Shown: positions 33,457-35,465 of the stretch, one piece after another
How the letters are laid out: each line of letters opens with the position of its first letter
Numbering within the stretch: position 1 is the first letter of the stretch
IMG/VR virus record: IMGVR_UViG_3300028364_000007
Span: 1 to 38,688 of that record
Length of the DNA: 38,688 nucleotides
Reading direction: 5' to 3' (one strand)
Source of the DNA: a virus
The notes under the pieces: generated by a model
Told to the model about the DNA's origin: nothing
Seen by the model: only the letters and a program-made list of their open reading frames with translations
The model's database searches: none
Position numbers and translations under genes: made by a program

Positions 33457-33716
33457 CCCCCCGCTATTTCGCCGCCACAAGCCGCATAGCCTGCAATGTC
33501 CATCCAGTTGTCTGCATAAGACGGATTGCCTTTCATGCGCGCCAGCTTCAGCAGGATCATCATGGCGGCAACATCTGCGCACCCGATCTCCTTGCCAAGG
33601 TATGCGGACCAGAGGCTTGCAATGCATGCAAACGTGTCCTCTGGATTGCCGTGCGTTGCATCGCGGTCCACGGTGACGGCTTGCGATGCTGCCGCTAGTA
33701 TGTCTGCGCGGTTCAT
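33453..33716 (-). CDS. DUF6378 domain protein (87 aa)
   Basis: An 87-residue protein that matches the small phage DUF6378 type: start NRADILAAASQAVTVDRDATHGNPED, then ASLWSAYLGKEIGCADVAAMMILLKLARMKGNPSYADNWMDIAGYAACGGEIAG. The helical core with HG-x-x-ED and DNW-x-DIAGYA is reminiscent of MazG-like all-alpha nucleotide enzymes, but this resemblance is only my reading. It is the last gene of the methyltransferase operon and follows the C5 gene with an ATGA-type overlap inside the 17-base repeated junction. Confidence 0.7.
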   Translation of the reverse strand: MNRADILAAASQAVTVDRDATHGNPEDTFACIASLWSAYLGKEIGCADVAAMMILLKLARMKGNPSYADNWMDIAGYAACGGEIAGG

Positions 33717-33728
33717 TCCGTAGCCTCC
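33712..33728. repeat. 17-base junction repeat, downstream of C5 gene
   Basis: TTCATTCCGTAGCCTCC occurs here and again at 34629-34645, exactly flanking the C5-methyltransferase gene. On the minus strand it reads GGAGGCTACGGAATGAA and holds a ribosome binding site (GGAGG), the last codons of one gene and the start codon of the next. Confidence 0.85.
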
Positions 33729-34633
33729 GCCGCAAGAATGGCGCGGCCTATGAGTTCGGGGATTTGCGGCACAACGGCGTTGCCTAATCCTTTAAGTCGG
33801 TCCACCCTGTTGGGAACCCCATTAGCCACTCGACAAATGGCGGGTTCAGGGCTCCACTCTCGTGGCTTACCGACTGGCCCAAGGATACTTGCTTGCCTAT
33901 TCTGATCCTGCGCTTGACTGACGTGCTTGAAAGGTTGCCCCTGTCCCTGTTGTCGCTGGCTGTTGGTGTCGGCCACATCTTGACCTGCTGGCACAACCCG
34001 ACCTGAGCCAGACGCCCCGTGTGCTTGTCGTATGCTCTTTGACCCATTTTCGCTGGCCCACCATCCTTGGTGATTAGTCTTTCGACCCTCACACCTGGGT
34101 CTTGAGAATTTGGGGTACGCCACAATCCAGACGCGCTCGCGACGATGGGGAGCGCCCAAGGCTGCCGCTGGTATGTTTTCCCATTCCGCATCATACCCGC
34201 ACTCGGCCAAGTCTGACAAAATTCGGCCAAACCATCCCCCTCGTTGTTCACTTGGGCCACTAAGCAGCGCTGCGACGTTCTCCACGATGACGTAGCGGGG
34301 TGATAGCTCGCCAATAAGTCTGACGATTTCGGACCAGAGGCCACTACGGGTTCCTTCTTTGATGCCAGCTTGTTTTCCTGCTGTGCTAATGTCTTGGCAC
34401 GGGAAGCCGCCCGTGATGACATCAACGGAAATGCCGTCTCGTTTAAGAATGTCGCCTGTGAGTTTGGTAACGTCTTCATAGCAAGGCACCTCCGGCCAAT
34501 GTTTCGCCAGCACTTTGCGCGGGAACGGTTCAATCTCGCAGAACGCCACGGTTTCAAAGCCGCCGGTGCGTTCAAGTCCAAGGCTGAAGCCACCGATCCC
34601 GCTGAACAGATCCAGCACTTTAAGCGGCTTCAT
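33713..34633 (-). CDS. C5-cytosine DNA methyltransferase (Dcm type)
   Basis: A 306-residue enzyme adding a methyl group to cytosine C5. Motifs: I LDLFSGIGGFSLG (7-19), IV GGFPCQDIS with catalytic Cys79, VI VIVENV (115-120), VIII HRRERVWIVA (163-172) and X GLGNAVVPQI (282-291). The target-recognition part between VIII and X is short (about 90 residues) and rich in Gly, Ser and Gln. The same DNA, in the +1 frame, encodes an open frame with methyltransferase-like phrases (see 33784-34593). The gene is flanked by a 17-base repeat, hinting at cassette insertion. No partner nuclease is present, so it is probably an anti-restriction orphan. Confidence 0.9.
   Translation of the reverse strand: MKPLKVLDLFSGIGGFSLGLERTGGFETVAFCEIEPFPRKVLAKHWPEVPCYEDVTKLTGDILKRDGISVDVITGGFPCQDISTAGKQAGIKEGTRSGLWSEIVRLIGELSPRYVIVENVAALLSGPSEQRGGWFGRILSDLAECGYDAEWENIPAAALGAPHRRERVWIVAYPKFSRPRCEGRKTNHQGWWASENGSKSIRQAHGASGSGRVVPAGQDVADTNSQRQQGQGQPFKHVSQAQDQNRQASILGPVGKPREWSPEPAICRVANGVPNRVDRLKGLGNAVVPQIPELIGRAILAAEATE
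33784..34593 (-). CDS. +1-frame reading frame overlapping the C5 gene, methyltransferase C-terminus-like
   Basis: This frame lies wholly inside the C5 gene, shifted by +1, and runs 269 residues. From about residue 120 it reads like the C-terminal module of many phage C5 enzymes: FCQTWPSAGMMRNGKTYQRQP, SGLWRTPNSQDPG, KMWPTPTASDNRDRGN and a closing LNPPFVEWLMGFPTGWTDL. The first 100 residues do not look like a known domain. It may be reached by a +1 frameshift or internal start, or be a remnant of an ancestral frame. No slippery site or ribosome binding site was identified. Confidence 0.35.
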   Translation of the reverse strand: MASALDLNAPAALKPWRSARLNRSRAKCWRNIGRRCLAMKTLPNSQATFLNETAFPLMSSRAASRAKTLAQQENKLASKKEPVVASGPKSSDLLASYHPATSSWRTSQRCLVAQVNNEGDGLAEFCQTWPSAGMMRNGKTYQRQPWALPIVASASGLWRTPNSQDPGVRVERLITKDGGPAKMGQRAYDKHTGRLAQVGLCQQVKMWPTPTASDNRDRGNLSSTSVKRRIRIGKQVSLGQSVSHESGALNPPFVEWLMGFPTGWTDLKD

Positions 34634-34645: not shown

Positions 34646-34827
34646 AGCGCCGCAAGCCCGTCCGGCGTGATTGTCCAGAGCCGTTCGATCATTTGCGGGC
34701 GCTCACACGCGCAACGGATATACCCGCCGCGATACAGCGCAGACAGAACATTACCCGTCGTGTCGCGGCATATGTGCCAGTCACCGTCTGACATGCGGGC
34801 GAGTGTGGTGCGTTGTTTGGGGGTCAT
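34630..34827 (-). CDS. Small protein upstream of C5 gene, helix-turn-helix-like (65 aa)
   Basis: A 65-residue protein: MTPKQRTTLARMSDGDWHICRDTTGNVLSALYRGGYI, then ACERPQMIERLWTITPDGLAALEATE. The order helix, short turn, helix (NVLSALYRGGYI) and a strand pair (RLWTITPDGLAAL) resembles a small winged helix of the kind ending LT-x-x-G-x-x-A. It is coupled to both neighbours by four-base overlaps and could regulate the operon or assist target recognition. Confidence 0.55.
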   Translation of the reverse strand: MTPKQRTTLARMSDGDWHICRDTTGNVLSALYRGGYIRCACERPQMIERLWTITPDGLAALEATE

Positions 34828-35465
34828 GTCTTATCCTCATAATCGCTTAGGCGCTCAAGGCGTAACCGCGTGCCGGGTGGTATCCAGTCAAACGCGGTTG
34901 AAGCGGTGCTGTCATTCTTGCGCCACACTAGCCAGCTGTAAGCCGTGGCGCTTGAAGCCTTGTGGTCATATCGGCCTTTGACTATCGAGACACGCTCACA
35001 AAATTGCAGAATGTCAGTCGGTGGAGCATCTTTGAACAATTCCCGATAACGCGCGCCACCCGCAAGAAACGCGCTGCGAACAATGACGGCAACACCGTGG
35101 CGGCTAGTGTTACGCGCCTGCGTGATGAATTGCTGCGCCAATCGGAATGGGGGGTTTGTTATTGTCCAGCTAACAACGCCCAGTGGATCGGCACCAAACA
35201 GATAATCCTGCACAGCAAACCCTGCGCCGTAATCGTGAACATCGGACGCCCAAACATCACCAAAGTATTCGTTTAACGGTTTCACCATGTGTCCACGGTT
35301 TGCCGCTGGTTCGCGGCAATCTAATTTTGGCAGGTCATATCCGCACGATGCAATCCATTCGCACAGCGCGCGCGTTGCCCAAGGCGGCGTTGGGAAGTCG
35401 TCACGGCTGTTGTGCGGCTCAACTCGGCGCTGCATAACAGCGGCTGAAGTGTTTTGCTTGCTCAT
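34824..35465 (-). CDS. DNA methyltransferase-like protein with NPPF motif
   Basis: A 213-residue protein with DFPTPPWATRALCEWI near the start, a SAM-site-like CREPAANRGHMVKPL (50-64), a VWASDVHDYG stretch (71-80) and TITNPPFRLAQQFI (101-114), where NPPF is the amino-methyltransferase motif IV. The order motif I then IV and the small size are those of phage N6-adenine-type enzymes. EPAANRG is a looser motif I than the usual DPCAGxG. It overlaps the ribbon-helix-helix gene by four bases. Probably protects the phage DNA from host restriction. Confidence 0.75.
   Translation of the reverse strand: MSKQNTSAAVMQRRVEPHNSRDDFPTPPWATRALCEWIASCGYDLPKLDCREPAANRGHMVKPLNEYFGDVWASDVHDYGAGFAVQDYLFGADPLGVVSWTITNPPFRLAQQFITQARNTSRHGVAVIVRSAFLAGGARYRELFKDAPPTDILQFCERVSIVKGRYDHKASSATAYSWLVWRKNDSTASTAFDWIPPGTRLRLERLSDYEDKT

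Follow-up and report, generated by a model that had tools for sequence, protein, structure and literature searches.

Can a single stretch of phage DNA encode two parts of one DNA methyltransferase in overlapping reading frames? The question is raised by a minus-strand gene in the IMG/VR virus record IMGVR_UViG_3300028364_000007, a stretch of 38,688 bases that is termed the window here. The original prediction had proposed that this C5-cytosine methyltransferase gene and its +1 frame both look like methyltransferase carboxy termini. Its coordinates, lengths and quoted phrases for the 0 frame and for the 269 codons of the +1 frame are correct (Table 1), and the separate searches of both translations that it had suggested led to phrog_363 for the 0 frame and to phrog_1008 for the +1 frame.

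Table 1 Features of the overlapping methyltransferase locus in the window.
Feature	Position	Strand	Details
Putative alpha subunit, 0 frame	33713..34633	-	306 aa; C5-methyltransferase chain with motifs I–VIII and X
Alpha-only 5' part, upstream of beta	34480..34633	-	Motif I and following; third-position substitution 0.466
Shine-Dalgarno GGAGGTG of beta	34487..34493	-	7 nt upstream of the ATG; within alpha codons for WPEVPCYED
Putative beta subunit, +1 frame	33784..34479	-	231 aa; start ATG at 34479; stop TAG with last base 33784, ahead of motif X
Predicted beta motif IX block LNPPFVEWLMGFPTGWTDLKD	33784..33849	-	Over alpha codons of the RVANGVPNRVDRL region
Alpha-only tail with motif X	33713..33783	-	Single coding after the beta stop; third-position substitution back to 0.493

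The products of the two frames

The 0-frame product, termed alpha, carries the C5-cytosine DNA methyltransferase motifs I (DLFSGIGG), IV (GGFPCQDIS, including PCQ), VI (ENV), VIII (HRRERVWIVA, including RxR) and X (LGNAVVPQIPELIGRAI), and matches PF00145 (E=2.9e-44), TIGR00675 (2.6e-38) and phrog_363 (5e-85). Residues F10, E33, P78-C79-Q80, E118-N119-V120, R165, R167 and G284-N285-P289 are invariant in 51 aligned alphas. The PF00145 match is confined to residues 3–179, and comparison of the relatives' sequences revealed no motif IX in alpha, either in the window or across the family; the TRD and motif IX are thus not combined in this chain as in a PF00145 monomer. Since the Pfam match stops at residue 179 and motif IX is found in the +1 frame, alpha appears to belong to a split C5 methyltransferase and not to the monomeric type. 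In the AF2 model of alpha the large domain reaches pLDDT values mostly >90 and the carboxy-terminal motif X helix is also modelled, with M.HhaI, M.HaeIII and DNMT1 as PDB matches. Residues 181–255 have pLDDT values <50, indicating disorder where the TRD and motif IX would be expected, and the segment between motifs VIII and X is very variable as well as predicted disordered.

The +1 frame is open between positions 33784 and 34593, and its product, termed beta, has about 75% of the length of alpha. It matches phrog_1008, a family labelled DNA methyltransferase (E about 5e-22 to 1e-21), and yielded neither a Pfam or NCBIfam match nor any catalytic motif, on which grounds we rejected a second complete enzyme in this frame. 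A Shine-Dalgarno sequence together with an ATG at the beta start site recurs in 62 of 153 relatives, compared with 18.7 expected from synonymous resampling of the alpha codons. Toward its end the +1 frame of the window contains a divergent motif IX, LNPPFVEWLMGFPTGWTDL, and the pattern LNPxFVEWLMGFPxGWTDL is present in the beta of nearly all relatives. The profile of the beta motif IX matches the IX block of M.AquI-like betas from mycobacteriophages (E=4e-10), and these betas in turn match ordinary IX–X regions (1e-4), whereas the direct comparison with ordinary single-chain motif IX is weak (E=0.008, probability 2%). The link to ordinary motif IX thus runs via the M.AquI-like betas, and we regard the predicted motif IX of beta as moderately supported. 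The AF2 model of beta is weak (pLDDT 65, pTM 0.34), although a strand-rich stretch around residues 51–100 is modelled better; Foldseek returned no PDB match for this model, and a search of the beta profile against the PDB gave nothing usable.

Small phage genes, one of them encoding DUF6378, surround the alpha gene, and no restriction enzyme was found among these neighbours. ATGA overlaps at 34630–34633 and 33713–33716 couple alpha to the preceding and the next gene, placing the locus in a tight operon. Two genes upstream of alpha lies a 213-aa open reading frame (34824–35465, minus strand) with the sequence TNPPF that resembles a phage N6-adenine methyltransferase and for which no Pfam match was obtained at E<=1e-3.

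Selection on both frames of the overlap

Conserved 0-frame motifs impose some sequence on the +1 frame, and we measured this effect by keeping the alpha protein fixed and redrawing its codons at the phage's own usage in 1000 trials. The beta span contains no +1 stop in the real gene versus a mean of 8.9 in the resampled genes, and it was open in none of the 1000 trials. A beta profile built solely from relatives <45% identical gave the real +1 translation of the window a score of 251.8 bits, compared with 91 ± 12 bits (maximum 130) for the resampled ones, and for the motif IX end, comprising the last 45 residues, the values were 52.5 bits and 2.1 ± 3.9 bits (maximum 23), respectively. About 91 of the 252 profile bits are thus a forced shadow of the 0-frame motifs, as exemplified by GMMRNG over GYDAEW and SGLWRTPN over HRRERVWIVAYP, and the resemblance of the +1 product to the beta family is partly, but mostly not, due to this shadow. 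The original observation is thus confirmed, with the caveat that some of its quoted phrases would seem familiar also if the 0 frame alone were coding.

The same signal is evident in the relatives. At 76 loci found by alpha alone, the region from motif VI to the motif IX block contains 2 stops in the +1 frame compared with 215.7 expected from synonymous resampling, whereas the +2 frame of these loci, serving as control, shows no depletion (564 stops, 525 expected); over all 153 usable loci, 10 stops in the +1 frame stand against 421 expected. We also considered that C5 methyltransferases might be open in the +1 frame in general, and rejected this idea, as enzymes surveyed in two phyla, mostly single-chain with few split alphas included, have 191 +1 stops over motifs VI–VIII versus 209 expected, i.e. 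no depletion.

Codon-position substitution rates were determined from 54 pairs of relatives and are given for 0-frame positions 1/2/3. From the alpha start to PCQ, a bin that takes in some overlapped codons, the rates are.167/.117/.466. They change to.198/.107/.215 from ENV to GYDAEW,.163/.066/.264 from GYDAEW to the end of motif VIII and.332/.198/.215 over the motif IX block, and reach.222/.149/.493 from motif X to the end of alpha. The third-position freedom of alpha is therefore lost within the overlap and regained past the end of beta; in the motif IX block it is the third position of the +1 frame itself that changes fastest. Together, these data strongly support that both frames are under selection and that the dual coding is real. 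Overprinting, one of the explanations offered originally, is corroborated by the stop depletion, the codon-position pattern and the SD/ATG, and the proposed comparison of codon positions among relatives indeed revealed the drop of third-position changes in the overlap. As grounds for rejecting dual coding, +1 stops in relatives and a lack of real +1 homologues had been named; we found the +1 frame open in the relatives and phrog_1008 to be a real family.

These results bear directly on two explanations in which beta would not be a functional protein. The +1 similarity could merely reflect conserved 0-frame codons and mis-annotated frames, as might be suspected from the roughly 91 bits still scored by resampled genes and from the match of the phage 5093 +1 frame to the beta profile. 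The excess of 160 bits overall and of 50 bits at motif IX, along with the stop depletion, the codon-position pattern and the SD/ATG, speaks against it; the tests on stops and on codon positions refute a pure shadow, and we give this explanation practically no credence. Alternatively, the +1 frame could be the decaying, no longer expressed remnant of an ancestral frameshift, which is a plausible origin of the layout, but throughout the family, at 35–70% identity, the +1 frame is still under purifying selection, rendering a remnant highly unlikely.

Relatives and origins of the overlapping layout

A tblastn search with the +1 product yielded 104 phage records (Mycobacterium, Paenibacillus, Arthrobacter, Synechococcus, Lacticaseibacillus and others). 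In all ten phage records inspected the match sits in the +1 frame of a methyltransferase, and several of the ten are annotated with two overlapping methyltransferases. IMG/VR was scanned twice, once with alpha and once with beta, resulting in 160 loci that together with the ten phage records, the window copy and the window stretch make up 172 sequences; both frames are kept in the +1 register in 172/172, and the phrog_1008 family was placed in the +1 frame of a methyltransferase at every locus examined. Phages of E. coli, Klebsiella and Stenotrophomonas also have the overlapping layout. In bacterial and archaeal genomes a profile scan detected 349 relatives, the best 80 of which all have overlapping frames and span many phyla as well as one archaeal MAG. 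Two of these 80, L190 and L228, exhibit a variant frame layout; in L228, from a Desulfovibrio MAG (707–1506), the alpha amino terminus shares the frame of beta and the alpha carboxy terminus lies in another, owing either to a genuine rearrangement or to a frameshift introduced by sequencing. In mycobacteriophages (L338–L356, L005 and L257) alpha ends just past motif VIII, the +1 overlap measures about 190 nt and beta carries motifs IX and X. Enterobacter phage CobraSix (L256, 1427–1861) has a fused C5/adenine methyltransferase reading frame with a +1 reading frame carrying CSLSQVLEKDSIPQKYFLSSTACAGIL, possibly a third overlapping class. No account of the phage-wide overlapping family turned up in the literature searches, although an existing one may have escaped them.

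Totally overlapping C5 methyltransferases have been described in Streptococcus thermophilus 5093-group phages, an S. pneumoniae phage and Tn5252 (PMC5601072). We first meant this 5093 type as a single-chain control and, having found it to be overlapping, treated it as a separate class. Its members (L258–L337; L172, 6067–7026) have a conserved +1 reading frame of about 140 aa belonging to phrog_16143, with an SD-ATG over HDIT, and over motifs VI–VIII 71 such loci, which are not independent, contain 0 +1 stops versus 256 expected. As in the window, two products arise from one DNA in the +1 register, with the beta start at the same gene position; in contrast to the window, motif IX is present within the 0 frame itself and the type forms a separate clade. 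The +1 reading frame ends with DILE..KYFLS, a segment that is missing from the 0 frame and that ordinary enzymes carry in-frame after motif VIII. A quick tree of motifs I–VIII (172 columns, including dual-coding ones) united the window-type split genes and the mycobacteriophage type in one clade (SH-aLRT 96) and placed the streptococcal type elsewhere, among single-chain enzymes. The separate clade, the +1 reading frame in the same place and the displaced DILE..KYFLS segment suggest at least two separate origins of the overlapping layout. Tentatively, and with somewhat more doubt than conviction, we propose that splitting into overlapping frames is a recurrent route: in at least two clades a once-in-frame internal segment would now lie in a +1 gene over motifs IV–VIII with the same start, the two-chain state being locked and the frame constraint preserving it across phyla.

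A putative two-chain methyltransferase and its known counterparts

As the +1 product is devoid of catalytic motifs, has its own SD start and supplies the motif IX missing from alpha, the two products would represent two halves of one enzyme; the same features leave the earlier idea of a second enzyme made by frameshifting with another target domain unsupported. From the sequence data we infer that alpha and beta are very probably the subunits of one heterodimeric C5-cytosine DNA methyltransferase encoded in overlapping frames. Alpha would contribute the AdoMet-binding, catalytic large domain (motifs I–VIII) and the closing motif X helix, and beta a part of the small domain with motif IX and probably the target-recognition residues, which may contact the DNA sequence. 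Co-translation from one mRNA would keep the two chains together, and docking of beta on alpha would restore the I–X set and thereby a sequence-specific methyltransferase activity. The enzyme probably modifies the phage DNA against host restriction, protection being the likely role given that no restriction enzyme was found among the neighbours. In the streptococcal type a beta-like +1 reading frame accompanies enzymes possessing their own motif IX, so that the +1 product need not be solely a motif IX donor.

Two further explanations would have both frames expressed with a different outcome. Programmed ribosomal frameshifting might fuse the catalytic amino-terminal part of alpha to the carboxy terminus of beta, giving a single chain with motif IX besides or instead of beta, as the shared strand, the +1 register, the long overlap and the mycobacteriophage alphas ending inside the overlap would permit. 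Such a fusion appears unlikely, since beta has its own conserved SD/ATG and the product in the window would be devoid of motif X, which is encoded in the 0 frame only and is invariant there. We consider it similarly improbable that beta is an overprinted accessory protein outside the enzyme, such as a regulator or an anti-defence factor: whereas the missing fold and Pfam matches and the streptococcal +1 proteins accompanying enzymes with their own motif IX are compatible with this role, beta carries exactly the motif that alpha lacks family-wide, and the M.AquI-like betas hold motif X too.

It is unusual for a long same-strand overlap to be conserved in phages, in many bacterial phyla and in an archaeal MAG, and on the heterodimer reading a role can be assigned to both of its products. 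The large families phrog_1008 and phrog_16143, labelled 'DNA methyltransferase', appear to consist of partner chains hidden in the +1 frame that annotators frequently overlook or enter as a second enzyme, and alpha alone would be insufficient for predicting or assaying specificity. The natural series of I–VIII+X/IX, I–VIII/IX–X and 5093-type arrangements offers study material for overlapping genes and obligate heterodimers.

Whether such an arrangement had been described before was left open by the original prediction. The kind is known from M.EcoHK31I and M.AquI, and what is new is a very widespread phage and bacterial member. The small chain of M.EcoHK31I is reportedly encoded in an alternative frame within the large chain. 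According to PMC3404938, which summarises Lee, Kam and Shaw 1995, M.EcoHK31I (YGGCCR) of E. coli is a two-polypeptide C5 methyltransferase with motifs I–VIII and X in the large and motif IX in the small chain, its predicted TRD being placed in the large chain, and M.AquI alpha/beta (CYCGRG) is split into I–VIII and IX–X (PMC3404938). Compared by published layout, the window shares the motif split of M.EcoHK31I, with I–VIII and X in alpha and IX in beta, and its small chain, like that of the relatives, lies in an overlapping alternative frame; E. coli and Klebsiella phage relatives share this arrangement. In contrast to the large chain of M.EcoHK31I with its predicted TRD, the alpha of the window has a predicted disordered and very variable segment between motifs VIII and X, and M.EcoHK31I is a bacterial restriction-modification enzyme, whereas the gene in the window belongs to a phage and no restriction enzyme was found next to it. 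Of the two window frames, alpha falls into phrog_363 and beta into phrog_1008; both families carry the label DNA methyltransferase, which is silent on their being overlapping frames of one gene. The I–VIII/IX–X arrangement of M.AquI recurs in the mycobacteriophage relatives, whose small chain holds both IX and X; in the window, beta ends before motif X, which alpha retains, and the two frames overlap over a much greater length than in M.AquI.
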